DNA from: Sphaerisporangium sp.
Lineage (GTDB): Bacteria > Actinomycetota > Actinomycetes > Streptosporangiales > Streptosporangiaceae
Direction: 5' to 3'
NCBI GenBank assembly: GCA_025964675.1
Contig: JAOPYI010000113.1
Coordinates: forward strand, 1 to 64,000
DNA: 64,000 nucleotides
Below the pieces are notes generated by a model, which saw nothing but the letters and a program-made list of their open reading frames with translations, made no database searches and had not been told where the DNA came from. This document shows, piece by piece, positions 17,917 through 33,393 of the stretch. Every line of letters begins with the position of its first letter. Position 1 is the first letter of the stretch. A program made the position numbers and the translations under genes.

Positions 17917-18440
17917 GATGACCCTCCCGTACGAAGGAGGCGGATGACCGCGCGGGTCGCGGAGGCCCCGGCGTACACCGCCAGCACGGCGCAGACCACG
18001 GTGGCCGCCAGGTAGGCGAGCGCGGTGCCGAGGGCGCCGGACGCGGCGGCCAGGCCCGCGTCGACGACGTAACCGGAGAAGGTGGTGAACCCGCCGAGGA
18101 CGCCCACGCCGAGAAACGGCCGCAGCAGCGGATGGACCGATCGCGCCTCGGTGATCGTGACCATGAGCACCCCGATCAGCAGGCATCCGGACACGTTGGT
18201 CGCGAAGGTCGCCCACGGGAAGCCGCCGGGCGGATGCGGGAAGGCCACGGCGAGCCCGTACCTGGCAAGGCTCCCCACCACCCCACCGGCCGAGATCACG
18301 CCCAGTGTGGCCCACGGGGCGCGCGGTGGTCCCGCCCGGCGGCGGCCGTCGCGCGGCCCGGCTCCGGCGCGGTGCGGAACCGGATCATCGCCGGAAACGT
18401 CGGGCACAGGGTGCACCTGGCGGCTCCACTTCTTCTCCAT
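17913..18440 (-). CDS. crcB: fluoride efflux channel subunit FluC/CrcB (first gene of pair)
   Basis: A 175-residue FluC homologue with an extra Arg/Pro-rich N-terminus of about 45 residues ahead of the four helices. Family motifs are [35 protein letters not shown] (conserved Asn) and [19 protein letters not shown] 18440 is preferred to a GTG five codons earlier because GGTGG precedes it. It heads the three-gene operon crcB-DUF190-crcB. No fluoride riboswitch was recognised in the leader. Confidence 0.9.
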
Positions 18441-18564
18441 GGCTGCCACCGACACTACCGAGCGCCCTCACCAGCCATGGGACAGCGGGTCCCCTCTCAA
18501 CCGGCCCGCAGGGCCGCCGGGAGATCGACGTCACCGGTCACGCGGCGTGCCGTGCGTCCGAGGC

Positions 18565-19428
18565 TCAGTCGACCTCGGCGCTGCCGCTGACCCGGAGCTT
18601 GCGCCGGGCGCGCTCGTAGAACGTCGTGGTGCCGAGCCGCACCACGTGGCCGGCGGAGCGCACGGCGGTCACCGTGATGTGGTCGCCCGGTTTCAGGCGC
18701 CCGCCGACCGAGCCGTCCACCTCGACGGCGAGCTGCCCGCTGGTGGGCAGCAGCTCCAGGGTGACCTCCTCGTCGGCGGACAGCACGAGGGCACGGTTGA
18801 ACGACGAGTGCGCCGCCGCGGGCACGACGATGAACCCCTCGACCAGCGGGGAGACCAGCGGGCCGCCCGCCGAGAAGTTGTAGGCGGTCGACCCGGTGGC
18901 CGTCGCCACGATGACCGCGTCGGACGCGTAGCGGACGAAGGGGTGGCCCTCCACCGAGATCGCCACCGCGCAGAGCCGGTCGCCGGGTATCCGCGCCAGC
19001 GCGATGTCGTTGAACGCGGTGACCGTCTGGCCGTCCGGCAGGGTGGCCCGCACCGCCATGCGCGGCTCGACGGTGAACTTGTGGCTGTCGATGGCCGACA
19101 GCGCGGGGGGCAGCTCGTCGACGTCGATCTCGGCGAGGAAGCCGAGCTTGCCGAGGTTCACCCCGAGGACGGGGGTGGAACGGCCGCAGACCAGCCGCAT
19201 GGTGCGCAGCATCGTGCCGTCACCTCCCAGGCTGACCAGCAGGTCGGCGCGGTCGACCAGGGCCGAGGAGTCGACCGCCACGGCGCTGCAGTCGATGCGG
19301 CCGACCTCGTCCGGCAGCCCCAGCACGGTCACATCCCTGGCGCGGGCCCACTCCACGATCGTGTCGATGGCCTGCTTGGAATCACGCTGAGGGTGCAGCA
19401 CCAGCCCTACGGTCTTGACCATGCCCAT
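18565..19428 (-). CDS. nadK: NAD kinase
   Basis: A 287-residue NAD kinase, converting NAD to NADP with ATP or polyphosphate. It shows LLVSLGGDGTMLRTMRLV (GGDG motif), PVLGVNLGKLGFLAEID, AFNDIALAR (NE/D motif), VIVATATGSTAYNFSAGGPL (substrate-binding) and VRLGTTTFYERARRKLRV. The first ATG of MGMVKTVGLVLHP is at 19428; TACAGT lies six bases upstream, so the transcript is probably leaderless. A start two codons later is also possible. In many actinobacteria nadK sits with tlyA and recN; here those are absent and a fluoride operon lies downstream. Confidence 0.93.
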   Translation of the reverse strand: MGMVKTVGLVLHPQRDSKQAIDTIVEWARARDVTVLGLPDEVGRIDCSAVAVDSSALVDRADLLVSLGGDGTMLRTMRLVCGRSTPVLGVNLGKLGFLAEIDVDELPPALSAIDSHKFTVEPRMAVRATLPDGQTVTAFNDIALARIPGDRLCAVAISVEGHPFVRYASDAVIVATATGSTAYNFSAGGPLVSPLVEGFIVVPAAAHSSFNRALVLSADEEVTLELLPTSGQLAVEVDGSVGGRLKPGDHITVTAVRSAGHVVRLGTTTFYERARRKLRVSGSAEVD

Positions 19429-19434
19429 GACGCA

Positions 19435-19440
19435 ACTGTA
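19435..19440 (-). promoter_or_regulatory. -10 box of leaderless nadK
   Basis: TACAGT on the minus strand ends six bases before ATG 19428. TANNNT at this spacing marks leaderless transcription in actinobacteria. No clear -35 box is seen. Confidence 0.5.
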
Positions 19441-19871
19441 CGGGCGTCCGGCGTCGGCGGGCACGGCGTTGTTAAGCTGTACGGGAGTCCATGGGACGCA
19501 AGGAGATCGCCCGCCGCGACACGCCGGTCACGGTCCTCACGGAACGGCGTCGCAGGCCTATAGGTGGCTCATCCGGCATTCCGGGCCTGCCGTTCTAACG
19601 GGAGAACGTCCTCCCCGCCGGAAATTCCTGTAGTCGGCCCTATCCTTGTCCGTGCGCCGATGTGGTCCTGACACCAGTTTCGGGGGCCAGGTGTGCCGCC
19701 AGGGGTTCGGTGACACGCCGGTCGGCGCTCCGATAAACGGGGACGTTCGACGGAAACGGCTAACTTACGCCAAGGGACCGCCAATGCATTGCACTGTTCT
19801 CCGCGTGGGAAGCGACGGAAACCGGGTATATTCTTGAGGTGTCAAACTAAGCTCTGTGAAAGGAGTGGGAG
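19441..19871. other. intergenic region before lsr2
   Basis: About 430 bases between the divergent nadK and lsr2 genes. No gene recognised. TATATT at 19827-19832 is the best -10 candidate for lsr2, giving a leader of about 35 bases with AAAGGAG at 19859-19865. Confidence 0.45.
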
Positions 19872-20204
19872 ATGGCGACACAGATCCAGACGCTTCTCAT
19901 CGACGACCTTGAAGGCGGCGAAGCAAAAGAGACCGTGGTCTTCGCGATTGACGGCACCAGCTACGAGATCGATCTGAACGACCAAAACGCCAGCAATCTG
20001 CGCGAGGCTCTTTCGCCTTTCGTCTCCAGCGCCCGCCGCGCGGAGGGTGGGCCTGCCCGGGGTCGCAAGCGCGGGGCGCCCCAGCGGCCCTCTCGCGACA
20101 AAAGCTCTGAGATCCGGGCTTGGGCCAAGGCGCACGGACTGAACGTCAGTGAGCGTGGCCGCATCGCCTCGCACATCGTGGCGCAGTACGAAGCCGCACA
20201 GTGA
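19872..20204 (+). CDS. lsr2: Lsr2 family nucleoid-associated protein
   Basis: A 110-residue xenogeneic silencer. The N-terminal dimerisation domain is MATQIQTLLIDDLEGGEAKE followed by TVVFAIDGTSYEIDL and NLREAL; a basic linker (RGRKRGAPQRPSR) leads to the C-terminal DNA-binding domain EIRAWAKAHGLNVSERGRIA, whose RGR loop inserts into the minor groove of AT-rich DNA. AAAGGAG precedes ATG 19872 by six bases. Lsr2 coats and silences horizontally acquired AT-rich genes, which is relevant to the AT-rich islet near 2.1-2.3 kb. Confidence 0.95.
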   Translation: MATQIQTLLIDDLEGGEAKETVVFAIDGTSYEIDLNDQNASNLREALSPFVSSARRAEGGPARGRKRGAPQRPSRDKSSEIRAWAKAHGLNVSERGRIASHIVAQYEAAQ

Positions 20205-21110
20205 ATGATTAACCCGTCGCGCCCGGATTAGTCGCCCGACGAGCACGTGATCCGCCGCCTGGATCGTCTCTAGCGGACCGCCTTTGTGGCGGCCGTGCTC
20301 GCACCGGGCAATGGCCCCCGGTAGCCTTGGCGGCCCGGGTGCCGCTTTCCTCCGGCCCGCAGGCCCACGCGCCTGGCCTGCAGGCTCTCGGCGTCCGGGC
20401 GTGATCGTCCTTGATCATCGTTCCGGCGAGGTAGTGCTGACTTCAGCGAATTTGTCAGGATCGGCACTATTCCTTACCACGCCAGTGTGTTAGCCGTGCC
20501 TGCGGCCGATCCTGTGAAGTTCCTGTGAAAGCCATGAGCCGTCATCGCGGCCGCGGCCGGGTGTGTCTTTCCCCACTTAACCGGTGTGACGCGTCGCCGA
20601 TCACCGCTTCACAAGAGCCGCGTGACGCCGAGCGACCTGCCTCCTGGCCAATGCGTAATCGTCTCGCCGGTCCCGGGACTTGACGGGCGGGCGAACCTAC
20701 GCCATTATCTCTGTCCCTCTTCGGCGTATCCCTGTCGGGCGCACTCCCGAGATGGCCGGGCGGACCATCCGCCGGCCCCGGCCGAAGCCTGCCGCCGCGC
20801 GGCGGTCCCCGCAATCTAATGGCCGCCGGAGACGCGGATTGTCCGATCATTTCCTCCGGTGAGGTCAATCATGGACCCCGGATCGGGTCCCCGTGGCGGC
20901 AGCCGATCCATTCGCCGGGCGGCCCCCTGCCCTATCGGGGGTGTTAGATGCGAAGACGATAAGGCAATGCCGGGGCCGGAAGTTTTGCCGGTGCTCACCG
21001 TTGAGCGGCCGGCGAATCCCAGCCGCCCCTTTTGTGACATTGTGTAAGCATCCTATGCCGGTATGTCCTGACTTTTTCGCTCCTATACGGGATAGGAGAG
21101 GGGGCCTGGA
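20205..21110. other. about 0.9 kb without a recognisable gene
   Basis: Between lsr2 and the convergent small gene ending at 21148. Frames on both strands lack family resemblance and coherent codon use. The region contains a GC hairpin (CCGCC/GGCGG near 20280-20292), a well-formed sigma-A-like promoter at 20680-20708, GGACCC/GGGTCC at 20872-20889 and CTCCTAT/ATAGGAG with a 5-nt loop at 21080-21098. It may encode a non-coding RNA or very small peptides. Confidence 0.4.
20680..20708 (+). promoter_or_regulatory. sigma-A-like promoter in an apparently gene-less region
   Basis: TTGACG (20680-20685) and CATTAT (20703-20708) are separated by exactly 17 bases, a near-consensus arrangement. It points rightward into about 400 bases with no evident gene before the convergent gene at 21148. 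Confidence 0.4.
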
Positions 21111-21135
21111 GCCGGCGGCGGCATTTTCCGCCGGC
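21111..21135 (-). terminator. hairpin downstream of the sigma-factor operon
   Basis: GCCGGCGG (21111-21118) pairs with CCGCCGGC (21128-21135); on the minus strand it follows the stop at 21148 by 12 bases. Placed as a terminator for the leftward sigma/effector operon. Confidence 0.5.
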
Positions 21136-21147
21136 GGGGCCGGCCTA

Positions 21148-21618
21148 TCAGATGATGATCCACTCTGTGGCCACCACGGCCCCCTGAAGGCGGCAGCGCA
21201 GGCTGAACGGGCCCGTCGGCACCTGATCACAGACGAACCTGCCCATGGCGTCGGCACTCACGGCCCCGGGACGGCGGCCGCGCACCTCGATCAGTGCCGG
21301 CTGGGCGGGGATCACCTGCCCGAGTACCCGGCCGGTCGCGCCCATGATGGTGATCTCCACGTCGATGGTCACCCCGTCGGCGTGGAACGTGGCGAGGCGG
21401 GTCTCGGTCGCGCCTCGCACGGCCCCCGGCTCCATGAGCGAGTCGAAGGTCAGCGCGGCCAGCTCTGCGTCGAGCGTGCGGAGCGTGTAGGCGTCCACGG
21501 CGATCTGGACGAGATCGGAGGGCACCGGGTCGAGGAGCGCCGCCGCGTGGCGCAGCGCGTCCTCCAGGCCCATGTCGTCATCGTCGTGGCCGGAGGTGCC
21601 AGGGCCCACGTCGTTCAT
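21148..21618 (-). CDS. small acidic protein with C-terminal beta (carboxypeptidase-regulatory-like) domain
   Basis: A 156-residue cytosolic protein of unknown function. The N-terminal 50 residues are acidic (HDDDDMGLEDAL) and helical, with DPVPSDLVQIAVDAYTLRTL then DAELAALTFDS, a pattern seen in proteins encoded beside ECF sigma factors. The rest is beta-rich: VTIDVEITIMGATGRVLGQV, PALIEVRGRRPG, DAMGRFVCDQVPTGPFSLRC and VATEWIII, resembling a carboxypeptidase-regulatory or transthyretin-like fold. Its ATG overlaps the stop of the sigma-factor gene (ATGA), so the two are co-translated. Context suggests it is the partner, anti-sigma or protease target of the sigma factor; this is inference. Confidence 0.75.
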   Translation of the reverse strand: MNDVGPGTSGHDDDDMGLEDALRHAAALLDPVPSDLVQIAVDAYTLRTLDAELAALTFDSLMEPGAVRGATETRLATFHADGVTIDVEITIMGATGRVLGQVIPAQPALIEVRGRRPGAVSADAMGRFVCDQVPTGPFSLRCRLQGAVVATEWIII

Positions 21619-22220
21619 CGCACACCTCGCTCGGCCAGGAGCGTCCTCAGCCGCCGCAGGCAGCGCTGCCTGGTCGGGCCGATGCCGCCGACGGGGATGC
21701 CGAGCGCCGCCGACACCTCGTTGTATTGGGGCCTGGGAGAGGCCATGAGCACGCGCAGGAGCCGCTGGCACGCCTCGCCGAGCTGCTCGAACGCCTGCCA
21801 GAGCTGCCTTGCCTTCTCGGCCCCGGCCTCGGCCTCCTCCGACCGGAGCAGCGCCTCCTCCGGCGTCCGCTCGTCGGCGATCCGGTCGAAGACCTCCGGA
21901 TCGCCGACCGGGAAGACCCGGCGGGACACCTTGATCAGTTTGAGGCACTCGTGGCGCGCCGTGCTGGCGAGCCACGATCCGACACTGTCCGGCTCGCGGA
22001 TGCGATCGAGATGCTGGGCGAGCCGGAGCCAGGTCGTCTGGTAGACCTCGTGGCCGTCGGCGTCCGACAGATTGTGGGCGCGCACGACCGACCACACCAG
22101 GGGGGCGAGCCTTTCGACGAGTGCTTTCCAGGCGGCGGCGTCGCCGTCGGCCGCGGCCAGGAAAAGGCTGCCGATCGAATCAGGGTTCACGGCGACGTCC
22201 CTTACGGCGGGGATCATCAT
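21615..22220 (-). CDS. ECF-type RNA polymerase sigma factor
   Basis: A protein of about 201 residues with sigma-70 region 2 (DGDAAAWKALVERLAPLVWS, VVRAHNLSDADGHEVYQTTW, LRLAQHLDRIREPDSVGSWL) and region 4 (RPQYNEVSAALGIPVGGIGP then TRQRCLRRLRTLL), joined by an acidic linker. ATG 22220 is the best start, as the frame runs further upstream into the subtilase gene; no good ribosome site is seen. It would direct RNA polymerase to its own promoter set. No membrane anti-sigma factor is encoded nearby; its neighbours are a small beta-domain protein, a cytosolic subtilase and a TPR-CHAT protease, hinting at proteolytic control. Confidence 0.88.
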   Translation of the reverse strand: MMIPAVRDVAVNPDSIGSLFLAAADGDAAAWKALVERLAPLVWSVVRAHNLSDADGHEVYQTTWLRLAQHLDRIREPDSVGSWLASTARHECLKLIKVSRRVFPVGDPEVFDRIADERTPEEALLRSEEAEAGAEKARQLWQAFEQLGEACQRLLRVLMASPRPQYNEVSAALGIPVGGIGPTRQRCLRRLRTLLAERGVR

Positions 22221-22285
22221 CGTACGGCCCGTGACGCGCGGAAGGGGATGATGCGTTTCATCGGGGAGCCGGTGGACGGCGGCTT

Positions 22286-23800
22286 TCAGGTCCGCCGGCG
22301 ATCCGACGTGCCCGCCGGCTCCCAGAGTGGCGGCCACAGGGCGCGGACCTCACCGCCGCGTACCGTCGCCGTACGCGTGAGGGGACCGGCGAGGAGCCCG
22401 GCCGCGGCCGCCCGGGAGTCGAGCCCAGGGTGCTCCATCATGTGGTTCGCGATCATGGCGGCGACGATGGGGGTGGAGAACGACGTGCCGCTCCACTGCG
22501 CCTTGCCGGTGAACCGGTCGACCGAGACCACGGGCGAAGGGGTGACGCCGCACGTGCTCAACTCGCCGACGTGCGCGGGGAACCGGCAGGTGCAGTCGTA
22601 GTCGAACGGCGGTGAGGGATCCAGCGGCCAGCGGCAGCCGTCGTACGTCGAGTGCTGGTACCTGTACTGCCTCGAGGCCTGCCCGGTGCCGAGGAACGCC
22701 CCCACCAGCCGTTCCCCCGGGGCGTACACCCGCACCCAGTCTCCGTGGTTGGAGAAGCAGGCGCCCCGCACGCCGTCCTCCCGCAGCGCTCCCACGGAGA
22801 GCACCGCGTCGCAGGGCTCCGGCAGGCACGCGGACGCGGCGGGCCAGAAGGGGTCGGCGCTCCCATTGTTCCCGGCCGCCGCCACCAGCAGGGTCTCCGG
22901 GTGGTCGGCCAGCCTTCGCATGAACTCGGCGAGCCCGAGCAGGGGCCCGCCGCACTCGGTGGACGTGCCGGCGGAGAGGCTGATGATGTCGGGCCACCGG
23001 GCCGTCTCCCCGCCGAGGCCGGCGAACGGCGACGGCTCGACGGCCTCCAGGATCTCGTGGCCGAAGTCCCGCTCGCACAGGGCGCCCGCGTGGACCAGCT
23101 TGCCGGAGACCCGCAGGTCGGCGTCCGGCGCGATGGCCGCGATGATCCCGGCGATGAACGTGCCGTGCCCGACGTACTCCTTGACGTAGTCCTCCTTGTC
23201 GGCCGCGGCGTCCGACAGGCGGGAGAGCGCCGGCTCGTGCCCGGTCTTGGCCGGCTCGCCCCTCGTCGGCACCACGCGCCGCATCCACGGGTAGAGGGTG
23301 TCGTGGTTCACCAGGAGCCCGGTGTCGACCACGACGATCGAGACCGGGCGCCGGAGGGCGGCGGACGGCGGGGTGAGGCCGGGGTGCCAGTCACGGGACG
23401 TCGGCACGGGCTCGTCCGACGGGCAGGAGTTCACCCCTCCGGAGGTGATGGCGACGACGTGGTTGCGGCCGCCCACCTTCCTGCCGCCGTTCCTGTCCGT
23501 GATGACCCTGATCGCGTCGAGCGATCTGGCCACCCCTCCGTCGCGGTCCGGGAAGTCCTCGTCGGTCACCTTGATCCGCAGCAGGCCGGCTTTGACGTCC
23601 CTCTCGTCGGGCATGGACACCGGCGCCCGCCTGCCGCTGTTGAGCACCTGGAAGACATCGGGCAGGTCACCCGCCGGCAGGATGATGTGGTCGCGCTCGT
23701 AAGCGTAGGCGGGCGAGGTCTCGTCCGGTCCGGCGACGAGGGGAACTCCCATCTCGCGGGAGATCTGGCCGAGCTGTTCCATGAAGCGGTCGGGCGTCAT
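22286..23800 (-). CDS. cytosolic S8 family serine peptidase (subtilase)
   Basis: A 504-residue subtilisin-like protease with a complete catalytic triad: Asp159 in SIVVVDTGL, His212 in VGHGTFIAGI and Ser440 in SGTSFSTPIVAAMIAN, plus the oxyanion Asn in VAAAGNNGS. There is no signal peptide or membrane helix: the N-terminal 150 residues (DRFMEQLGQISREMGVPLVA, ERDHIILPAGDLPDVFQVLN) form a separate domain, so the enzyme should act inside the cell. A Cys-rich insertion lies between about 390 and 430 (CRWP, DCTCRF, STCGV). ATG 23800 follows AAGGAG by six bases. It is probably co-transcribed with the sigma factor and divergent from the CHAT gene. Confidence 0.92.
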   Translation of the reverse strand: MTPDRFMEQLGQISREMGVPLVAGPDETSPAYAYERDHIILPAGDLPDVFQVLNSGRRAPVSMPDERDVKAGLLRIKVTDEDFPDRDGGVARSLDAIRVITDRNGGRKVGGRNHVVAITSGGVNSCPSDEPVPTSRDWHPGLTPPSAALRRPVSIVVVDTGLLVNHDTLYPWMRRVVPTRGEPAKTGHEPALSRLSDAAADKEDYVKEYVGHGTFIAGIIAAIAPDADLRVSGKLVHAGALCERDFGHEILEAVEPSPFAGLGGETARWPDIISLSAGTSTECGGPLLGLAEFMRRLADHPETLLVAAAGNNGSADPFWPAASACLPEPCDAVLSVGALREDGVRGACFSNHGDWVRVYAPGERLVGAFLGTGQASRQYRYQHSTYDGCRWPLDPSPPFDYDCTCRFPAHVGELSTCGVTPSPVVSVDRFTGKAQWSGTSFSTPIVAAMIANHMMEHPGLDSRAAAAGLLAGPLTRTATVRGGEVRALWPPLWEPAGTSDRRRT

Positions 23801-23895
23801 CGTGGGCTCCTTGTTCGAATGGCGGTCATCCGTCACCGGATAAGAGCCGGAAGGTGCCCGGCTGATACTCCGTGGACGCCCCGAAGCCTCACGTC

Positions 23896-23901
23896 TAACA
23901 T
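23896..23901 (+). promoter_or_regulatory. -10 box of the leaderless CHAT gene
   Basis: TAACAT ends six bases before GTG 23908, the spacing of a leaderless actinobacterial transcript. The 107-base gap to the divergent subtilase start must hold both promoters. Confidence 0.5.
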
Positions 23902-23907
23902 CGATCC

Positions 23908-26568
23908 GTGGGTGGGGGAAGCTCGCGCGATTCCGAAGAGGCGGCGGACCCTCTCGACCTGCTGCCTCTGGTCTTCGCGCGCCCGGCCGAGGCGCTCGCC
24001 CGGGCACGTGCCCTTCTGTCCTCGGCCCCCACGCCGTACGACGCCTCCATCGCCCACCAGGTCGCCGGCATCTGGGAGCGGGACTTCGGCGATCTGACGG
24101 TCGCGATCGGCCACCTGAGGCGGGCGTGCGCGCTCGGCCGCCGCTGCGGATCACCCGACCGCGAGGCCGACGCGCTGGCGGCGCTGGGCGTCGCGGTGGT
24201 CTACTCCGGGCGTACGGCACAGGGCCTGCGCGTCCTCGACGCAGGAGTGACGCGGGGCGGCGGCGTCACGGCGGCCCGCGTGCGGTTCCGCCGGGGCCGC
24301 GTCCTGTGGATCCTCGGGCGGCACCACGAGGCCCTGGACGACCTGCGCCACGCCGTCCCCGTGCTACGGGAGGCGGGGGACACCATCTGGACCGCGCGGG
24401 CGCTCACCCTGCGCGGGCTCGTCCACCTCTCCTTCGGGTCCACCGACCACGCCGACAGGGACTTCGCCGCCGCCGAGCGCCTCTGGGACCTCACCCACCA
24501 GGATCACGACCGCAGCGTGGCGGTGTGGAACCGCGGAGCGGCGGCGTTCCGTTCCGGCGACCTGCCGACGGCCCTGCGCCATCTCGACGAGGCCGCCAGG
24601 CGCTTCGAGGCACTCGGCACGCCGTCGTTCGGCCTGGCCCACGACCGGTGCGACGTGCTGCTGGCGGCGGGGCTGGCCGACGAGGCGCTCCAGGAGGCCG
24701 ACGGCGCCACGGCGCTCCTCGAGCGCATGCGGGGGCAGACGACCACCAAGGCCGAGCTCCTGCTGGTGGCCGCCCAGGCGGCGCTGGCCGCGGGCGATGC
24801 CGACACGGCTGTGGCCCGCGCGCTCGCGGCGATACGCCTGTTCGCGAGCCAGCGCCGCGAGTGGTGGGAGGCACACGCGCGGCTCGTGCTGTTCAGGTCG
24901 CGCGTCGCCACGGGCAGCATCTCCGGCCGGCTCGTACGGGACATCGCGGCGCTGGCCACCCGCCTGTCCGAGCTCCGATCCCCCGAGACGGTGCAGGCGT
25001 CCCTGCTCGCCGGCCGGGTGGCCCTCGCGCTCGGCTGGGCCGAGGACGCCGACCGACACCTGGCCGCCGCCGCGCGCGGGCGGCACCGGGGCCCGGCCGT
25101 CGCGCGGGCCGACGGATGGCTGGCCGAGGCGCTGCGCGCGATGGCCGCCGGACGGGGCAGGGGCGTGCTCAGCGCCTGTCGCAGGGGGCTCGACGTGCTC
25201 GACGAGCACCGGCTCGCCCTCGGCGCGTCAGAGCTGCGGGCACGGGCGACCGCCCAGGGCGCCGAGCTGGCGGCGCTCGCTCAGCGCGCGAGCCTGCGGC
25301 CGGGGAACGCCCGGGCGCTTCTGGACTGGAGCGAGCGGTGGCGGGCGACCGCGCTCGCGGTGCCTCCCACCCGCCCTACGGACGACCAGGAGCTGCTGCG
25401 CGAGACGACCGCCTTCCGCGAGATCACCAGCCGCGTGGAGTCGGCCCGGTCGGCCGGCACGCCCGCCCCCGCCCTCGAGCGCGAGCAGCGGCGGCTCGAG
25501 CGGGCCATCCGTGCGCGCACGCTCAGGGCGCGCAGCGAGGGGAGGACCAACGGCCGTCCCTTCGAGGTCCGCACCCTGCTGGACCGTCTCGGCGACGGCA
25601 GGCTGGTCGAGATCGTCGGTGTCGACGGCGACATCCACGTGCTGGTCTGCGGCGGGGGAAGGGTGCGCCGGTTCCCGGCGGGCCGGGTCGCCGGCGCGGC
25701 CGCCGAGATCGACCACGTCCGTGCCGGGCTCCGGCGGCTCGCGTACGAGGCGACGGGGCGGCAGGACGGCCGGCGGGCCGGCGCCAGGGCGGCGGAGAGG
25801 TTCGGGCTCCTTGAGGCCGGGGCGCGCCGCCTTCAGGACATGCTGCTCGGCCCGGCCCTCCGCCATCTCGGGGACGGCCCGGTGGTGATGGTCCCCCCGG
25901 GACGGCTGCACGGGGTGCCCTGGGCGGCGCTGCCCGCCCTGCGTGACCGGGTGCTCGGCGTCTCGCCGTCCGCGGGGGCGTGGCTTCGCGCCGGGGACGT
26001 CCGGCCGCCGCTCGGCGCCGGGGTCGTGCTGGTACGCGGTCCTGGCCTCGCGACCGGCGGCGCGGAGGTGCCGCGCCTGGCACGGGAGTACGGCGAGGCG
26101 ATGGTGCTGGAGGACGGCACCGCCACCGCCTCGGCCGTGTTGAAGGCCATCGACGGCAGCCTGCTCGCGCACATCGCCGCCCACGGCGCCTTCCGCGCGG
26201 ACAGCCCCATGTTCTCCTCGCTTCGCATGGACGACGGGCACCTCACCGTCCACGACGTGGAGCGGCTGAGCCGCGCTCCCTACCGCATCGTCCTGTCGAG
26301 CTGCGACTCCGGCGTCCTTGAGCCCATCGGCGCCGACGAGCTGCTCGGCCTCGCGGCCGCGCTGCTGCCTCTCGGCACCGCGGGCGTCGTCGCGAGCCTG
26401 GTCCCGGTCAGCGACGAGGCCGCCGTACCGCTGATGGTCTCCCTCCACGACGGGCTGCGCGCCGGACTCGGCATGGCCGAGGCCCTTCGCGACGCCAGGC
26501 GGGCGCTGCCGGGCGACCCCCTGCACCAGGCCACGGGGTGGTCCTTCTCCGCCATCGGGGCCGCCTGA
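23908..26568 (+). CDS. TPR-CHAT protein (caspase-like protease)
   Basis: An 886-residue soluble protein. Roughly residues 15-470 are tandem TPR-like helical repeats (ALARARALLSSAPTPYDASI, RRACALGRRCGSPDREADAL, GDTIWTARALTLRGLVHLSF, DLPTALRHLDEAARRFEALG). A basic coiled region about 500-550 follows. The C-terminal CHAT domain (about 590-886) has the dyad His759 in IAAHGAFRADSPMFSS and Cys799 in IVLSSCDSGV, the arrangement of clan CD proteases such as separase and caspases. GTG 23908 is probably leaderless. CHAT proteins with TPRs are used in bacterial immunity and regulated proteolysis, for example Csx29. Here it faces an intracellular subtilase and an ECF sigma factor, suggesting a protease-driven switch. 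Confidence 0.92.
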   Translation: MGGGSSRDSEEAADPLDLLPLVFARPAEALARARALLSSAPTPYDASIAHQVAGIWERDFGDLTVAIGHLRRACALGRRCGSPDREADALAALGVAVVYSGRTAQGLRVLDAGVTRGGGVTAARVRFRRGRVLWILGRHHEALDDLRHAVPVLREAGDTIWTARALTLRGLVHLSFGSTDHADRDFAAAERLWDLTHQDHDRSVAVWNRGAAAFRSGDLPTALRHLDEAARRFEALGTPSFGLAHDRCDVLLAAGLADEALQEADGATALLERMRGQTTTKAELLLVAAQAALAAGDADTAVARALAAIRLFASQRREWWEAHARLVLFRSRVATGSISGRLVRDIAALATRLSELRSPETVQASLLAGRVALALGWAEDADRHLAAAARGRHRGPAVARADGWLAEALRAMAAGRGRGVLSACRRGLDVLDEHRLALGASELRARATAQGAELAALAQRASLRPGNARALLDWSERWRATALAVPPTRPTDDQELLRETTAFREITSRVESARSAGTPAPALEREQRRLERAIRARTLRARSEGRTNGRPFEVRTLLDRLGDGRLVEIVGVDGDIHVLVCGGGRVRRFPAGRVAGAAAEIDHVRAGLRRLAYEATGRQDGRRAGARAAERFGLLEAGARRLQDMLLGPALRHLGDGPVVMVPPGRLHGVPWAALPALRDRVLGVSPSAGAWLRAGDVRPPLGAGVVLVRGPGLATGGAEVPRLAREYGEAMVLEDGTATASAVLKAIDGSLLAHIAAHGAFRADSPMFSSLRMDDGHLTVHDVERLSRAPYRIVLSSCDSGVLEPIGADELLGLAAALLPLGTAGVVASLVPVSDEAAVPLMVSLHDGLRAGLGMAEALRDARRALPGDPLHQATGWSFSAIGAA

Positions 26569-26759
26569 GCGGCGAATCAGGGAGGGGTGACTCATGCTCG
26601 AAGCCGAGAGGGGGTCACGGAGGGTCATCATGCCGCGTCCGGCAGCCATGACGCGAGTCAGGCAGGCGTCAACTCCTCCTCAAGTGCCACCCGCTCGAGG
26701 TAGCCGTGGGTGGGGATGGGTAGCCATCCGAGCAGTTGTCCATCAAGGGGGAGAGGGCA

Positions 26760-27233
26760 ATGAAACGTGCTGTTTTGGGCGCGATGATGCTGGGAGGCAT
26801 CGGCCTGGGCGTGATGCGATGGCTCAACTCGCGCCAGACCAAGGCCAGGGCCGAACGGGAGGCCAGCCGGTGGCTGATGGTGACCATCAACCGCCGGCCG
26901 GACGAGGTGGTGCCGGACGGGCGGCTGCCCGAGCCGCTGGCACGCCTCGGCGAGACCATCGAGGTACAGGTCCGAGAGGCGCCCGGTGACCGAGGCACCG
27001 AGCTGGGCGCGCGGCCGGTCACGCCGGTGCCCACGGGCGTGGAGGAGGTCATGGCGCGCCTGGCCGGGGAGGACCCCCGTCAGGCGGTGCGCACGGCCCT
27101 GCGGGAGTCCAAGTGCCTCATCGAGACCGGGGAGGTGCTGCGCCCCGACGAGCCGCCGACGACGCGGCCCACTCCCACCGGAAGGCTTGTGGATCTCGCG
27201 TCGCAGCGCGCGGGCGGGGAGGGACGGCTGTGA
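26760..27233 (+). CDS. conserved hypothetical protein with N-terminal membrane anchor
   Basis: A 157-residue protein starting MKRAVLGAMMLGGIGLGVMR, a short hydrophobic anchor, followed by a soluble domain: WLMVTINRRPDEVVPDGRLP, EPLARLGETIEVQVREAPGD, RGTELGARPV. These resemble proteins found in front of zinc alcohol dehydrogenases in actinobacteria, of unknown function. GGGGGAGAGG precedes ATG 26760. Its TGA overlaps the GTG of the dehydrogenase (GTGA), so the two are co-translated and probably work together. Confidence 0.75.
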   Translation: MKRAVLGAMMLGGIGLGVMRWLNSRQTKARAEREASRWLMVTINRRPDEVVPDGRLPEPLARLGETIEVQVREAPGDRGTELGARPVTPVPTGVEEVMARLAGEDPRQAVRTALRESKCLIETGEVLRPDEPPTTRPTPTGRLVDLASQRAGGEGRL

Positions 27234-28405
27234 AGGCACTCACCTGGCAGGGCGTGAACGAGTTGTCGGTGGAACGCGTGCCCGACCCTCGGATCCTCAA
27301 CGCCCAGGACGCGATCGTCAAGGTGCGGATGACCACCACCTGCGGCTCCGACCTGCACCTTCTCGGTGGCTACATCCCGGCCATGCGCGCGGGGGACGTG
27401 ATCGGCCACGAGTTCCTCGGCGAGGTCGTCGAGACCGGGCCGGAGGTCCGCCGGCACAGAGTGGGCGACCGGGTCGTGGTGTGCTCGATCATCGGCTGCG
27501 GCCGGTGCTGGCACTGTGAGCACGACATGTGGTCCCTGTGCGAGAACAGCAACCCCAAGCCGGGCATCACCGACATGATGTGGGGCGGCACCACCGCGGG
27601 GATCTTCGGCTACTCGCACGCGATGGGCGGGTTCAAGGGAAGCCACGCCGAGTACGTGCGTGTCCCCTTCATCGACTACAGCGCGTTCACCGTGCCCGAC
27701 GGGGTCGACGACCTGAACGCCCTGTTCGCCTCCGACGCGGCGCCCACCGGCTGGATGGGCGCCGACCTCGGCGGGGTGCGGCCGGGAGACGTCGTGGCGG
27801 TGTGGGGCTGCGGGGGGGTCGGCCAGATGGCGGCGCGGGCCGCGATCCTCCTCGGCGCCGACCGGGTCATCGCGATCGACCGCTACCCCGAGCGGCTGAC
27901 GATGACCGAGCGCCACATCGGGGCCGAGACGATCGACTACACCCGCACAGACGTCATCGCCGAACTGCGCGAGCGGACCGGCGGCCGGGGTCCCGACGTC
28001 TGCATCGAGGCCGTCGGCCTGGAGGCGGACAGCCCCGGCCCGCAGAAGATCTACGACAAGGCCAAGCAGCGGCTCGGCCTCGAACAGGACCGCCCCATCG
28101 CGGTACGGGAGGCCATTCACGCCTGCCGCACCGGCGGATCGGTGTTCGTCCTCGGCGTCTTCGCCGGGATGGTCGACAAGTTCCCGCTCGGCGCGCTGAT
28201 GAACAAGGGCCTGACGCTGCGGGGCGCCCAGCAGCACGGCCAGCGGTACATCCCGAAGCTGCTCGACCTGATCTCCAAGGGCGAGCTGAGGACGGCCCAC
28301 CTCGCGACGCACACGATGACGCTGGACGAGGGGCCGAGGGGTTACGACATGTTCAAGAACAAGAAGGACGGGTGCGTGCGGGCGGTCTTCCGTCCCTGGG
28401 CGTAG
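27230..28405 (+). CDS. zinc-dependent alcohol dehydrogenase (formaldehyde dehydrogenase-like)
   Basis: A 391-residue medium-chain dehydrogenase. Catalytic zinc ligands are Cys38 (TTCGSDLHLLGG) and His60-Glu61 (VIGHEFLGEVV); the structural zinc loop is CGRCWHCEHDMWSLCENSNP. The coenzyme domain has VWGCGGVGQMAARAAILLGA. The insertion ENSNPKPGITDMMWGGTTAG and the long C-terminal part with FKGSHAEYVRVPFIDYSAF place it with glutathione-independent formaldehyde dehydrogenase-like enzymes. GTG 27230 overlaps the upstream TGA. A strong terminator follows. Position directly before the DosR-like cluster suggests a redox-balancing role; no DosR box was seen before this operon. Confidence 0.9.
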   Translation: MKALTWQGVNELSVERVPDPRILNAQDAIVKVRMTTTCGSDLHLLGGYIPAMRAGDVIGHEFLGEVVETGPEVRRHRVGDRVVVCSIIGCGRCWHCEHDMWSLCENSNPKPGITDMMWGGTTAGIFGYSHAMGGFKGSHAEYVRVPFIDYSAFTVPDGVDDLNALFASDAAPTGWMGADLGGVRPGDVVAVWGCGGVGQMAARAAILLGADRVIAIDRYPERLTMTERHIGAETIDYTRTDVIAELRERTGGRGPDVCIEAVGLEADSPGPQKIYDKAKQRLGLEQDRPIAVREAIHACRTGGSVFVLGVFAGMVDKFPLGALMNKGLTLRGAQQHGQRYIPKLLDLISKGELRTAHLATHTMTLDEGPRGYDMFKNKKDGCVRAVFRPWA

Positions 28406-28439
28406 ATCGGCCGCCTTCGGGTCCGGGTCCCTTCGGAGA

Positions 28440-28473
28440 GGGCCGGCGCCGCCTCGCGCGGCACCGGCCCTTT
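28440..28473 (+). terminator. terminator after the alcohol dehydrogenase
   Basis: GGGCCGGCGCCGC (28440-28452) pairs with GCGGCACCGGCCC (28458-28470) with one mismatch and a CTCGC loop, followed by TTT. It starts 35 bases after the stop codon. Confidence 0.75.
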
Positions 28474-28522
28474 CCGTGCGGCGGCATGATCGCCCAGACA
28501 CGGTGACGCACGGCGTCAGCGG

Positions 28523-28559
28523 AGTCCTAAGGTCCCCGCCGCCCGGGACTTTCGGCGCT
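28523..28559 (+). promoter_or_regulatory. tandem DosR/DevR-like boxes before the CBS-BON gene
   Basis: Reverse strand of 28523-28538 reads CGGGGACCTTAGGACT and forward 28544-28557 reads CGGGACTTTCGGCG. Both fit the DosR core GGGACTTTAGTCCC in its strongly conserved GGGAC half and central T/A steps. They lie 60-96 bases before ATG 28619, the usual distance. Paired boxes are typical of strongly DosR-induced genes in mycobacteria. Confidence 0.6.
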
Positions 28560-28618
28560 GACGGCGTCGCCGCCACGGGCGGGATGCTCGAACCAGGGCG
28601 GAAGTCAGGGAGGCAGCC

Positions 28619-29281
28619 ATGAACATGTATGTCCGGGACGTCATGGGCAGGGTGGCCATCGCGGTCCAGTTGAACACGTCGTTCTCCGACCTCGTCGAGA
28701 CGATGCGCCGCTTCAAGGTCGGCGCGGTGGCGGTCATCGACCACGACCGGCGGCCGGTCGGGGTGGTGTCCGCGCACGACCTGCTCAAGGAGTTCGGCAC
28801 GCCGCGCGGCGCCGTGTTCGAGGGCCGCCGGCAGCGCAGGGAGCACATCAAGGCCGCGGGGAGCACGGCGGCCCAGGTCATGACGACGCCCGCGATCACC
28901 GTGACCGAGAAGACGCCCGTCAGGGAAGCCGCCCGCATCATGCACGACCACCGGATCAGGCAGCTGCCCGTGGTCGACGAAACCACCGGCAAGATCGTCG
29001 GCACGGTCCACCAGCCGGACCTGCTCAAGATCTTCGTACGCCCGCCCTCCGACGTGCGTGCCGACGTCGACGACACCCTGTGGCGCGCCTCCGTCGACCC
29101 GGGGACCCTCACGATCATGGTGGACCACGGCCTGGTGTCGCTCCGTGGCACGGTTCCCCGGCGCTCGCAGATCACGCAGGTGGTCCAGGGAGTGCATGCC
29201 ATCGACGGTGTCATCGAGGTCGACGACCGGATGTGCTACGAGACCGACGACCTCGTCACCGTGCCCCCGCTGTATCTCTGA
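28619..29281 (+). CDS. CBS domain protein with C-terminal BON domain
   Basis: A 220-residue cytosolic protein. Two CBS motifs (MYVRDVMGRVAIAVQLNTSF ... VGVVSAHDLLKEFG, and AAQVMTTPAITVTEKTPVRE ... IRQLPVVDETTGKIVGTV) form a Bateman module that binds adenine nucleotides; residues about 150-215 are a BON domain (TLTIMVDHGLVSLRGTVPRR, IDGVIEVDDRM). AGGGAGG precedes ATG 28619. Homologues such as mycobacterial HRP1 belong to the DosR dormancy regulon; two DosR-like boxes upstream support the same control here. It probably senses energy state. Confidence 0.9.
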   Translation: MNMYVRDVMGRVAIAVQLNTSFSDLVETMRRFKVGAVAVIDHDRRPVGVVSAHDLLKEFGTPRGAVFEGRRQRREHIKAAGSTAAQVMTTPAITVTEKTPVREAARIMHDHRIRQLPVVDETTGKIVGTVHQPDLLKIFVRPPSDVRADVDDTLWRASVDPGTLTIMVDHGLVSLRGTVPRRSQITQVVQGVHAIDGVIEVDDRMCYETDDLVTVPPLYL

Positions 29282-29343
29282 CCGGCCCGTCGCTGTGTGA
29301 TGGTGGAAGCGGGCACGAGAACACACGGAGGGGGAGGTGCGCC

Positions 29344-30213
29344 ATGGCGGGACGTATCGTCGTCGGGGTCGACGGTTCCCCGTCGGCCGCCGCCGCCGTG
29401 GAGTGGGCGGCCGACGAGGCCACGCGCAAGCGGGCGCGTCTCAGGATCGTGCACGTCTGGGAGCCCTGGTCGTACGACTTCCCCTTCAAGGCGGCGCCGC
29501 GCTTCGAGAGCTCGCTCCCGGCGTACTGGACGGGCGCGCTGGCCGCCACCGTCGACTGGGTGCACGACCACGCACCGGGCCTCGAGGTCAGCGCCGCCCT
29601 GGTCACGGGGGCCGTGTCGGAGAGGCTGACGACGGAGTCCGAGGACGCCGACGAGCTCATCCTCGGCAGCAAGGGGCTGGGCGGCTTCGCGGGACTGGTG
29701 CTGGGCTCGGTCGGCCGGTCGGTCGCCGGGCATGCTCCCGGCCCGGTGATCGTGGTACGCCGCTTCACGCCGACCAGGTACGGCGAGATCGTGGTCGGCT
29801 TCGAGGGGTCGGAGCTGTCCGAGGCCGCCCTGGAGTTCGCGCTCCAGCAGGCCCGGCTGCGTGAGGCCCGGGTCCACGTGCTGTACGCCTGGTGGACCCC
29901 GCCGTTCTCCCCGCACGCGACCGCCTACGCCGGCGGTGTGCAGGAGGTGCTCGCCGAGGAGTCGCGCGAGGTCCAGCGGCGCCTGGATCCCTGGCAGGAC
30001 AGGTACCCCGACGTGCGGATGGTGGGCTCGGCCGTGCGGGGGCACCCGATCCGCGCGCTGTCGGACGCCTCGCGGGAGGCCGACCTGGTCGTCGTCGGCT
30101 CCCGGGCGCACGGCTCCTTCGCCTCGGCCTGTCCGGGCTCGGTCAGCCAGGGCGTCCTGCACCACGCCCGCTGCCCCGTCGCCGTCGTACGGCCCCGCCC
30201 GCCGCACGCGTAG
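29344..30213 (+). CDS. universal stress protein, two tandem USP domains
   Basis: A 289-residue protein with two USP domains. Each starts with a beta strand and nucleotide loop (RIVVGVDGSPSAAAAVEWAA; EIVVGFEGSELSEAALEFAL) and has the ATP-binding G-x2-G-x9-G-S/T signature (LGSKGLGGFAGLVLGSVGRS; VVGSRAHGSFASACPGSVSQ). The layout and length match the DosR-controlled USPs of mycobacteria (Rv2623 type), which bind ATP and slow growth in hypoxia. CGGAGGGGGAGG precedes ATG 29344. It lies 62 bases after the CBS-BON gene, probably in the same transcript. Confidence 0.92.
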   Translation: MAGRIVVGVDGSPSAAAAVEWAADEATRKRARLRIVHVWEPWSYDFPFKAAPRFESSLPAYWTGALAATVDWVHDHAPGLEVSAALVTGAVSERLTTESEDADELILGSKGLGGFAGLVLGSVGRSVAGHAPGPVIVVRRFTPTRYGEIVVGFEGSELSEAALEFALQQARLREARVHVLYAWWTPPFSPHATAYAGGVQEVLAEESREVQRRLDPWQDRYPDVRMVGSAVRGHPIRALSDASREADLVVVGSRAHGSFASACPGSVSQGVLHHARCPVAVVRPRPPHA

Positions 30214-30336
30214 CCTTTGGCCGCGCGGGCATCGGCGGGTGGTGGGGCGGTCAAGTGCTGCCCGCTCTTTGAGCAAATGTCCTGTTCGCGGCTTACATCC
30301 AGATTCGGGCCGGGCATCCGGTGGGAGACTCCCTGT

Positions 30337-32067
30337 ATGGCGGACGTCCAACCGCGCTCCCTCATGCCGCACATGCGGCTCGACGAGTTGCTGTCGGAGC
30401 TGCAGGTCCGGCTTGAAACCGTGCTGGCGACGCGTGACAGGGTGCACGCCCTGCTCGACGCGGTCGTCTCGGTGGGGAGCGACCTGGACCTGGAGACGGT
30501 GCTGCGCCGGATCGTGGAGACCGCCACCACCCTCGTGGACGCGACGTACGGCGCCGTCGGGCTGATCGGCGAGGGGAACACCCTGGTGCAGTTCGTCCCC
30601 GTGGGACTGTCCGAGGAGGAGATCGCCAGGATCGAGCACTGGCCCCACGGGCTCGGGCTCCTCGGCCTGCTGATCAAGGACCCGCGCCCGCTTCGGCTCC
30701 ACCACATCGCCGAGCACACCGAGTCGTACGGTTTCCCGCCCGGCCATCCGCCGATGGGGTCGTTCCTCGGCGTGCCGATCCGCGTGCGCGAGGAGGTCTT
30801 CGGCAACCTCTACCTGACCGAGAAGCGCGGGGGCGGCGACTTCGAGGAGGAGGACGAGGACATCGTGATCGCCCTCGCCACGGCGGCCGGGGTCGCGATC
30901 GAGAACGCCCGGATGTACGAGGAGACCCGGCGGCGCGAGGTGTGGCTCCAGGCGTCCTCGGAGGTCACCACCAGCCTGCTGTCGGGGGCCGGCTCGCATG
31001 ACGTGCTGACGCTCATGGCGCGGCGGGCGCGCGAGATGGCCGACGCCGACGTCGCGGTGGTGCTGCTTCCCTCGGCCGGCGGTGAGAAGCTGCGCGTCAT
31101 GATCGCCGACGGGGTGGCGGCCGAGGACATCACGGCGGTGGAGGTCGTGGTCGCCGACTCGCTGTCCGGACGCGCGTTCACGGGAGGGGAACCCGTCGTG
31201 GTCACCGACCTCGCCGAGACCGAGATCCCCGCCGTGATCTCGGACGGCCTGCGGATCGGCCCGGCCGTGGCGGTGCCGCTCGGAGCGGCCGGGGCCGTGC
31301 GGGGCGTGCTGTCGCTGGGCAAGCGCTCGGGCCGCATTCCCTTCAGCCAGTCCCACGTGCGCATGCTGCACTCGTTCGCCGGGCAGGCGTCCATCGCCCT
31401 GGAACTGGCGGAGGCGCGCGAGGACGCCGAGCGGCTCGGCCTGCTCGAGGACCGCGACAGGATCGCCAAGGACCTGCACGACGTGGTGATCCAGCGCCTG
31501 TTCGCGATCGCCATGACGCTGATGAGCGCCGTCCGCCTCGTCGACCGGCCGGAGGCCTCCTCGCGTCTTCAGCACGCGATCGACGAGCTGGACGGCACGA
31601 TCCGGCAGATCCGTTCGACCATCTTCGCCCTTCAGACGCCTCCGGACGCGACGCCCGGCCTGCGCGGGCAGATCGTCGAGCTGGTGGAGGCGGCGCGCGG
31701 GCACCTCGGCTTCATGCCGGGCCTGCGGATGGAAGGGCCCCTCGACAACAGGGTGCCGCCGGAACCCGCCGAGCACCTGCTGGCCGTCCTGCGGGAGACG
31801 CTGTCCAACGTCGTGCGGCACGCCCGCGCCCGCAGGGCCGATGTCGGAGTGGAGGTCGTGGGCGGCTGGCTGACGCTGGTGGTCGAGGACGACGGGATCG
31901 GCCCTCCCACCGGCGGGCGCAACAGCGGACTCCGCAACCTCCGGGACCGGGCCATGGGGCTCGGGGGCTCCTTCGCCGTCGAGTGCGCCGGGGAACACGG
32001 CACCCGGGTGAGCTGGCGCGTGCCGCTGGACCAGCCCGGCGCGGTCAGTCCCGGCGATCGGCCTTGA
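30337..32067 (+). CDS. GAF-domain sensor histidine kinase, DosS/DevS-like
   Basis: A 576-residue soluble kinase. Two GAF domains (about 55-205 and 215-365) precede a HisKA_3 dimerisation helix with phospho-acceptor His381 (IAKDLHDVVIQRLFAIAMTL) and a HATPase_c domain (ETLSNVVRHARARRADVGVE; VVEDDGIGPPTGG; LRNLRDRAMGLGG). The first GAF contains GFPPGHPPMGSFLGVPIRVR then EEVFGNLYLTEK, almost the same as mycobacterial DosS/DosT; His137 of GHPPM sits where those proteins carry the haem ligand, so it may sense oxygen, NO or CO. It converges with and overlaps the response regulator gene by 23 bases instead of sharing an operon. Confidence 0.92.
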   Translation: MADVQPRSLMPHMRLDELLSELQVRLETVLATRDRVHALLDAVVSVGSDLDLETVLRRIVETATTLVDATYGAVGLIGEGNTLVQFVPVGLSEEEIARIEHWPHGLGLLGLLIKDPRPLRLHHIAEHTESYGFPPGHPPMGSFLGVPIRVREEVFGNLYLTEKRGGGDFEEEDEDIVIALATAAGVAIENARMYEETRRREVWLQASSEVTTSLLSGAGSHDVLTLMARRAREMADADVAVVLLPSAGGEKLRVMIADGVAAEDITAVEVVVADSLSGRAFTGGEPVVVTDLAETEIPAVISDGLRIGPAVAVPLGAAGAVRGVLSLGKRSGRIPFSQSHVRMLHSFAGQASIALELAEAREDAERLGLLEDRDRIAKDLHDVVIQRLFAIAMTLMSAVRLVDRPEASSRLQHAIDELDGTIRQIRSTIFALQTPPDATPGLRGQIVELVEAARGHLGFMPGLRMEGPLDNRVPPEPAEHLLAVLRETLSNVVRHARARRADVGVEVVGGWLTLVVEDDGIGPPTGGRNSGLRNLRDRAMGLGGSFAVECAGEHGTRVSWRVPLDQPGAVSPGDRP

Positions 32068-32686
32068 GGTGCGCGGCGAGCGCCGCCGCCTGCGTACGCC
32101 GTTGCATGTCCAGCTTGGCGAGAAGGTTGGACACGTAGTTCTTGACGGTCTTCTCGGCGAGGAAGAGGCGCTCGCCGATCTGCCGGTTCGTCATGCCCTC
32201 GCCGATCAGCTCCAGGATGTGCCGCTCCTGGCCGGTGAGCGCGGAGAGCGGGTCCTTCCTGGTGGCCTGGTCGCGCAGGCGCCGCAGCATCGAGGCGGTG
32301 GTCTGGGGGTCGAGCAGCGACTGGCCCCTGGCCACCGTGCGCACGGCTCCGACCAGGTCCGAGCCGTGGATCTGCTTGAGCACGTAACCCGCCGCCCCGG
32401 CCATGACCGCGTCGAACAGGGCGTCGTCGTCGGCGAACGAGGTGAGCATGAGGCAGGAGAGCCCCGGAGTCCGCGAACGGACCTCGCGGCAGACCTCCAC
32501 GCCGTTCCCGTCGGGCAGCCGCACGTCCAGCACGGCGACGTCGGGCCTGAGGGCGGGGATCCGCGCCACGGCCTGCTCGGCGGTTCCCGCCTCGCCGACG
32601 ACCTCTATGTCGTCCTCGGACTCGAGGAGGGCGGCCACGCCGCGCCGCACCACCTCGTGGTCGTCCAGGAGGAACACACGAATCAT
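32045..32686 (-). CDS. devR: LuxR-family response regulator, DosR/DevR-like
   Basis: A 213-residue NarL/FixJ-type regulator. The receiver domain opens MIRVFLLDDHEVVRRGVAAL and has Asp54 in AVLDVRLPDGNG as phosphorylation site, the switch Thr in LTSF and Lys in YVLKQI. The C-terminal helix-turn-helix is LTGQERHILELIGEGMTNRQ then IGERLFLAEKTVKNYVSNLL and AKLDMQRRTQAAALA, which matches mycobacterial DosR nearly residue for residue in the recognition helix. A perfect GGGAC-N4-GTCCC box lies 36 bases upstream of the ATG, suggesting autoregulation. The cognate kinase is the convergent GAF kinase. Confidence 0.92.
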   Translation of the reverse strand: MIRVFLLDDHEVVRRGVAALLESEDDIEVVGEAGTAEQAVARIPALRPDVAVLDVRLPDGNGVEVCREVRSRTPGLSCLMLTSFADDDALFDAVMAGAAGYVLKQIHGSDLVGAVRTVARGQSLLDPQTTASMLRRLRDQATRKDPLSALTGQERHILELIGEGMTNRQIGERLFLAEKTVKNYVSNLLAKLDMQRRTQAAALAAHLKADRRD

Positions 32687-32721
32687 AGTCGGACGCTAGC
32701 CCCCCACCCGCCTCACGGGAA

Positions 32722-32735
32722 GGGACGAAGGTCCC
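32722..32735 (-). promoter_or_regulatory. DosR/DevR-like box before the response regulator
   Basis: GGGACGAAGGTCCC is a 14-base dyad with the DosR half-sites GGGAC and GTCCC at the correct 4-base spacing. It ends 36 bases upstream of ATG 32686, so the regulator probably controls its own gene. Confidence 0.6.
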
Positions 32736-32798
32736 TGGTCGCGCGTGTCGTCACCTCCCCGGGCCCGCTTCCCGGGCGAGCCCGGTTCCAAGCGTGAC

Positions 32799-33221: not shown

Positions 33222-33288
33222 GTGAACCTCCCTGGAGCTCGTCGGGTCCTTCACCTCCATCTGATGCCTGCGCGGGTGCCCGGGTGCA

Positions 33289-33324: not shown

Positions 33325-33393
33325 TCGCACCGGGCCCGCTCCGGAAGATCCAGACCCGGCGGCGCCGCGGTGAGGCCGCCCGCCTGGGGCTCG

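Follow-up and report, generated by a model that had tools for sequence, protein, structure and literature searches.

A four-gene module was analysed in a 64,000-nucleotide stretch of Sphaerisporangium sp. DNA (contig JAOPYI010000113.1, positions 1 to 64,000, of assembly GCA_025964675.1; order Streptosporangiales), hereafter the window. The genes encode an extracytoplasmic function (ECF) sigma factor (SIG), a small protein (SML), a subtilase (S8) and a TPR-CHAT protease (CHAT), and they form a unit conserved in many soil bacteria. Their coordinates and the predicted control elements are given in Table 1. An earlier note, made from the window's sequence, had read the block as a proteolytic transcription switch and had listed an overlapping pair of an ECF sigma factor and a 156-residue protein, an S8 protease with its triad and no signal peptide, and a divergent 886-residue TPR-CHAT protein with a His/Cys pair. 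Each of these elements was found in place. The stop codon of SIG and the start codon of SML overlapped in TGCGATGA. The triad residues of S8 lay in the motifs VVDTG (Asp159), GHGT (His212) and GTSFSTP (Ser440), and the start of this protein was not like a signal peptide, with a maximal 19-residue hydropathy of 0.36 across the first 25 windows. The hydropathy of CHAT exceeded the usual membrane level at a single value, 1.91 at residue 814, which was located within the folded CHAT domain. Pfam searches returned CHAT (7.9e-29) and TPR_12 (5.7e-13) for CHAT, Peptidase_S8 (3.5e-19) for S8 and Sigma70_r2 (2.3e-11) for SIG. SML reached no Pfam cut-off; CarboxypepD_reg (PF13620) scored 13.5 bits against a gathering cut-off of 32.3.

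Table 1. Genes, predicted promoters and candidate site of the module, in window coordinates.
Feature	Position	Strand	Description
SML	21148..21618	-	156 aa; N-terminal helical segment and C-terminal beta sandwich; candidate cleavable anti-sigma factor
SML Arg68 codon	21415..21417	-	In the linker motif [VLIAT]R[GSATD]; putative site of cleavage or contact
SIG	21615..22220	-	ECF sigma factor, 201 aa from the chosen ATG
S8	22286..23800	-	Cytosolic subtilase, 504 aa; Asp159/His212/Ser440
Predicted ECF-type promoter of S8-SIG-SML	23844..23868	-	GTATCA-N16-CTC, 43 nt before the S8 start
Predicted sigma70-like CHAT promoter	23873..23901	+	TGGACG-N17-TAACAT, 6 nt before the GTG
CHAT	23908..26568	+	TPR-CHAT protease, 886 aa, GTG start; His759/Cys799

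Conservation of the module

Of 200 genomes from the order, 162 had SML, and a profile of the protein found it in 41 genomes among 396 sampled across the phylum. The proximity of SML to CHAT was measured in a subset of 65 genomes of the order, 64 of which were matched by the SML profile. At least 79 of the 90 SML matches in this subset (a gene on contig 27 of genome G060 is split and counts as two of them) had a CHAT match within 9 kb, the distance used for neighbourhoods, against about 0.5 expected. The co-occurrence of the four genes, on which the earlier note had built its proposal, was thus borne out by clustering far beyond chance. Among the 150 CHAT matches listed for the same genomes, 72 had no SML match near them, so that CHAT genes also occur outside the module.

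Eighty SML loci were selected from the match lists and do not form a random sample. SIG was found within 9 kb in 74 of them, CHAT in 68 and S8 in 59, and SIG was located directly upstream of SML in 73. A set of 89 loci was obtained by adding nine of ten loci found through S8, the tenth (L039) being excluded as it was without SML. All four genes were present in 63 of the 89 loci, in six arrangements (31, 25, 4, 1, 1 and 1 loci). The main arrangements were the window's own type, in which CHAT diverges from S8-SIG-SML, and a co-directional S8-SIG-SML-CHAT order. When open reading frames were clustered over 70 loci, the four module families were the four largest clusters; the clusters that followed reflected local synteny, and the biggest of these was in type-B loci. 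Both the 70-locus and the 89-locus sets count L031 and L042, which are the same stretch.

The two main types separated in every gene tree, with edge supports of 0.61 for CHAT, 0.98 for S8, 0.81 for SIG and 0.78 for SML. Only one of 56 loci was misplaced for S8, and none of 56 for CHAT, SIG or SML; hence, the parts were mostly inherited together. The distances in the SIG and SML trees had the strongest correlation among the six gene pairs (r 0.867). S8 was the part most often missing, and it looks accessory because nine loci had SIG, SML and CHAT but no S8. The source genome itself had two CHAT matches, the second of which lay within a second S8-SIG-SML-CHAT set (L057, contig 28, positions 18000-36000), a locus chosen by its CHAT and SML matches.

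Two further observations concern single genomes. In L039, from Nonomuraea aurantiaca, CHAT and S8 were both in pieces and no SIG-SML pair was found in the fetched stretch, an apparent decay of the whole module or a sequencing error. G063, a genome of the family, had at least 20 CHAT-domain matches, which is an unusual expansion.

Conserved residues and folds

The conservation of catalytic residues was evaluated in alignments that included the window's row together with the CHAT matches covering at least 60% of the query (58 of 64) and the S8 matches covering at least 40% (52 of 55). His759 and Cys799 of CHAT, the pair singled out in the earlier note, were invariant in all 59 rows. In S8, Asp159 was conserved in 52 of the 52 rows with a residue at this position, and His212 and Ser440 were each conserved in 53 of 53. 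Judged by these residues, both proteases look active.

The structure model of CHAT had a predicted local distance difference test score (pLDDT) of 83.7 and a predicted template modelling score (pTM) of 0.78. It best matched separase (5fby; Z 27.9, root-mean-square deviation (rmsd) 3.3, 316 residues), and Csx29 was matched by 7y9x (Z 26.1, rmsd 14.0, 493 residues) and 7y83 (Z 22.8, rmsd 4.7, 398 residues). A profile of the C-terminal part of CHAT, searched against PDB sequences, returned DdvA first (3.1e-14) and then Csx29 (2.2e-8). CHAT scored 18.2 bits against the Csx29 family model NF041237, for which the cut-off is 300. The preference of separase for Arg at P1 is attributed to D2151, equivalent to K670 of Csx29, in the section of PMC9729208 on these proteases. 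A corresponding specificity of CHAT through Asp836, conserved in 58 of 59 rows, was considered and rejected, since the equivalent of D2151 and K670 by alignment was Val840.

SIG and SML were modelled as the fusion obtained from L033 when the stop codon between the two genes is read through. The sigma factor was confidently predicted, and residues 272-347 formed a beta sandwich with block pLDDT values of 75-89 to residue 340 and of 62 for the last ten residues. The structural matches of this sandwich were Ig-like domains and folds close to them, one being 3uc2 (Z 9.1, rmsd 2.0, 77 residues). The architecture of SML consisted of helices, a linker of variable length with a conserved VR[GS]-like motif, and the beta sandwich. 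Arg68 was present in 69 of 70 distinct sequences, the remaining one having a gap. A linker could be extracted from 83 of the 89 distinct SML sequences, six being dropped, and the pattern [VLIAT]R[GSATD], which was picked after the alignment, occurred in 75 of the 83, whereas shuffled linkers gave a mean of 27.7 and a maximum of 40. On the strength of this excess, the motif is the foremost candidate for the point at which SML is cleaved or contacted.

Promoters and the split in genus g22

The intergenic region between CHAT and S8 of relatives had a conserved two-part element, TGTATCA-N16-CTC, before S8. Over the 70 loci (1.24 Mb), the pattern GTATCA-N16/17-CTC had 79 matches, whereas the reversed pattern had one. 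Of the 21 operons assigned to the divergent, S8-led class, 17 had the pattern in front of them (shuffles gave 0), and none of 37 separate CHAT genes did. SIG probably recognises this site. Scores from 28 training sites, which ranged from 21.2 to 36.1, placed the S8 promoter of the window at the top of the 26 pattern sites in the source genome (30.2). One other site fell within the training range (22.7), and the next scored 16.4. The site with the score of 22.7 (L156, contig 310, positions 13813-13837) almost abutted an open reading frame of 115 residues without a Pfam match.

Most type-B loci of the window's family were without a GTATCA-N16/17-CTC site. A promoter common to the type-B leaders was rejected as a candidate: a GTATCTG variant was seen by eye in L060, L128 and L129, and in none of the other 14 leaders inspected. 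The co-directional second module of the source genome (L057) was also without the site.

CHAT is predicted to have its own promoter. In the 28 divergent loci with a SIG-type promoter, the full form of the CHAT-type promoter was counted in 12 and its -10 half in 21; these are raw counts with no control pattern. A promoter that ends 6 nt before the start codon is expected for a leaderless transcript, and the CHAT transcript is predicted to be of this kind.

Sites of the longer form, TGTATCA-N16/17-CTC, were also found apart from the module genes. Among 25 sites with no module gene scored downstream, 13 preceded LuxR-like genes that fell into two clusters, with eight sites before the one and five before the other; three of these genes were searched against Pfam and returned GerE with or without an AAA domain. 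Other single sites were located before a BTAD regulator (L054) and a UDP-glucose dehydrogenase (L110). In L051, L130 and L034, the LuxR-like frames near the module remained open across the SIG-type site, which itself offers a start codon; hence, the true starts are probably later.

A natural separation of the parts was found in genus g22. Four of its genomes (G060, G148, G160 and G170) had no SIG between S8 and SML, the S8 promoter being intact, and a SIG-SML pair was located 30-35 kb away on the same contig in all four. A SIG-type site was also located near this SIG; it accompanied a LuxR-like gene in L051 and L130 and was likewise present in L160 and L161. The arrangement agrees with an action of SIG on the S8 promoter in trans.

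A proposed proteolytic sigma switch and its alternatives

The reading proposed here, to which we give about an even chance, is that the locus is a cytosolic switch of sigma factor, anti-sigma factor and protease, in which CHAT cleaves SML and the freed SIG induces its own operon, including S8, so that the switch would reinforce itself once on. CHAT would be made from its own housekeeping-type promoter and would act as a sensor protease, with a TPR sensor and a caspase domain like those of separase and Csx29. The N-terminal helical segment of SML would keep SIG inactive until CHAT, once triggered, cut SML; the most likely place of this cut is the linker stretch at Val67-Arg68-Gly. The released SIG would then drive TGTATCA-N16/17-CTC promoters, namely that of its own S8-SIG-SML operon and, in many relatives, that of a neighbouring LuxR/LAL-type regulator. 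S8 would be the induced second protease, an amplifier or executioner, and newly made SML could reset the switch. SML is a candidate anti-sigma factor by its position and the likely brake, because it is the constant partner of SIG. In loci of the window's type CHAT would be transcribed separately from the sigma operon, and it is the likely trigger. S8 is probably an output of SIG, or an amplifier, rather than a trigger, because it lies behind a SIG-type promoter and is missing in some lineages.

Several results weigh against this reading. The SIG-SML fusion model had no confident interface (pTM 0.38), and the helical part of SML reached a pLDDT of only 33-64. The SML profile, searched against PDB sequences to E 10, matched no solved anti-sigma factor and no Csx30, although a Csx30 chain is present among these sequences (8eey, by its title); the sole match was a zinc transporter (E 1.4). 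No Csx30 or anti-sigma chain was found among the listed structure rows covering the SML half, which is no evidence of absence. The pocket of CHAT predicts no cleavage site at Arg, with the non-acidic Val840 aligned to separase D2151. In the 45 other SIG operons, the GTATCA-N16/17-CTC site was found within 400 bases in only seven (shuffle mean 0.02), several of the 45 being divergent S8-led loci that have the site and were misclassed as SIG-led through overlapping frames. In the window's family (f1), eight S8-led leaders of type B were read, none of which had the motif. The window alone gave one match against 0.58 expected with wider spacing, which is not significant, and the source genome had 26 pattern sites against 19 reversed controls; with only two of these sites in the training range, a wider regulon in this genome was dropped. 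Finally, in g22 an SML gene sits with S8 and CHAT without SIG, and SML may therefore have another role.

Three other mechanisms were weighed. A cascade in which CHAT triggers S8, and S8 destroys SML or finishes the fragments made by CHAT, appears unlikely. It would agree with the position of S8 beside SIG-SML in most modules, with the approximately 150 residues that precede the catalytic core of S8, and with g22, where S8 and SML stay together without SIG. However, 21 of the 80 SML loci had no S8 match within 9 kb, nine of these 21 having SIG, SML and CHAT, and an S8 gene behind a SIG-type promoter should be scarce before activation. Direct proteolysis of SIG without an anti-sigma factor, in which the proteases hold SIG low and SML is a mere co-factor, is rather improbable. 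Such control is the published proposal for ECF54, as the account of this group in PMC8999054 puts it, and neither the fusion model nor the PDB profile search demonstrated an anti-sigma fold for SML. The placement of SML right after SIG in 73 of 80 loci, as in sigma/anti-sigma pairs, argues against it, as do the correlated SIG and SML tree distances and 10 loci in which SIG and SML remain paired with neither CHAT nor S8 close by (four of them in g22 and one at a contig end). The same low probability is assigned to SML as a scaffold or positive partner, which would present SIG or a substrate to the proteases and inhibit nothing. SML stays with S8 and CHAT where SIG is gone (the four g22 loci and L126), and its C-terminal domain is an Ig-like sandwich, a common binding fold, whereas the overlap of the SIG and SML genes in the window speaks against this role, as does the known case of Csx30, which inhibits a sigma factor and is cleaved by a TPR-CHAT protease according to the part of PMC10028731 on this pathway.

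The earlier note had also suggested a phage-defence relay. Defence or abortive infection, which concerns the purpose of the module and would be compatible with the other mechanisms, is very unlikely, and a putative stress or developmental role is more likely. CHAT proteases are defensive elsewhere, as Csx29 and the gasdermin-linked CHAT proteases described in the relevant section of PMC9729208 illustrate, and S8 had PADLOC matches to a generic subtilase (1.3e-10) and, over 33 residues, to IetS (4.1e-7). These matches are generic or short; that of CHAT was weak (BovA, 0.014), SIG and SML had none at E up to 1, and no protein of the module had a convincing full-length match in PADLOC-DB. SML was matched by no record of the phage collection and by one of the plasmid collection, an 11.85-Mb record that is probably a chromosome because of its size. 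Moreover, the window neighbours with Pfam matches were ordinary (NAD kinase, Lsr2, CrcB, alcohol dehydrogenase, CBS-BON, Usp and a GAF histidine kinase), and type-B copies shared common local synteny. The defence claim of the note accordingly received little support. To the right of CHAT, at 26700-32100, a zinc alcohol dehydrogenase, a CBS-BON protein, a universal stress protein and a GAF histidine kinase form a run like a dormancy or stress cluster; the zinc alcohol dehydrogenase was also present in L031 (= L042), L041, L046 and L097.

Relation to known systems

Judged by its gene neighbours, the module very probably belongs to the ECF54 neighbourhood. Conserved carboxypeptidase, subtilase and CHAT neighbours are listed for ECF54 in the corresponding entry of PMC8999054 (citing Huang 2015; Casas-Pastor 2021), where proteolysis without an anti-sigma factor is proposed as the control. 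The same set surrounds the ECF sigma factor in the window: a subtilase gene, a CHAT gene and, as the carboxypeptidase-type gene, SML, whose match to that family is below threshold. Because ECF54 already covers neighbourhoods of this kind, the set of genes is itself no novelty. The published view, as given in that entry, has no anti-sigma factor, whereas in the switch proposed here SML would be the anti-sigma factor, S8 a sigma-induced output and CHAT a separately expressed trigger. The ECF-type promoter, the separate CHAT promoter, the g22 split and the linker motif are added here. Searches of the literature returned no paper about the promoter, about the linker motif or about the parallel with Csx29; this is weak evidence, and Huang 2015 and Casas-Pastor 2021 may include a promoter prediction.

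In type III-E systems, according to the part of PMC10028731 on this pathway, the TPR-CHAT protease Csx29 cleaves the sigma inhibitor Csx30, and CASP-sigma has sites in its own locus. The likeness in protein classes that the earlier note had drawn holds, CHAT being modelled like separase and Csx29 and SIG being an ECF sigma factor; the two systems share a separase-like TPR-CHAT protein with a His/Cys dyad, an ECF-type sigma factor, a partner protein and, with the predicted site before S8, sigma sites in the own locus. They differ in that the window adds the S8 protease, the module is co-inherited on chromosomes, CHAT falls far under the cut-off of the Csx29 model, and SML has no sequence match to Csx30. 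The note's statement that CRISPR is missing from the locus also stood: no array was found in 14000-40000, where the sole repeat was a two-copy 26-nt repeat inside the SML gene, and no Cas family was detected among the 10 flanking open reading frames scanned, no Cas7-11 profile being used. DdvA (PDB 8rot/8rw5) resembles the window in that a CHAT domain is tied to sigma control, but DdvA is by its PDB title a transmembrane anti-sigma factor, whereas CHAT and the presumed anti-sigma factor of the window are separate soluble proteins. EACC2-caspase systems likewise place a caspase-superfamily protein, an ECF sigma factor and a TPR protein in one neighbourhood; their core domains are others (EACC2, DUF1822), and the available text of PMC8195603 describes no subtilase-SML-CHAT set.

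Sigma control of the ECF54 type has so far been only a proposal in a review, as far as the account in PMC8999054 goes. The promoter site, the CHAT promoter, the g22 split and the linker motif make this proposal testable with a yes or no answer. It is possible, though doubtful, that the module is a CRISPR-free actinobacterial cousin or source of the Csx29-Csx30-CASP-sigma pathway, in which CHAT would sense a signal in the cytosol and cut a dedicated anti-sigma factor at the conserved VR|G motif of its linker, and SIG would build up a second, cytosolic subtilase along with a regulator of the LuxR type. The fate of cells in filamentous bacteria would then be decided by proteolysis in an all-or-none manner. 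Should the proposed switch operate as described, type III-E CRISPR would appear to have borrowed its protease arm from a more ancient sigma switch of the chromosome, and a caspase/separase-like protease would commit bacterial cells via transcription.

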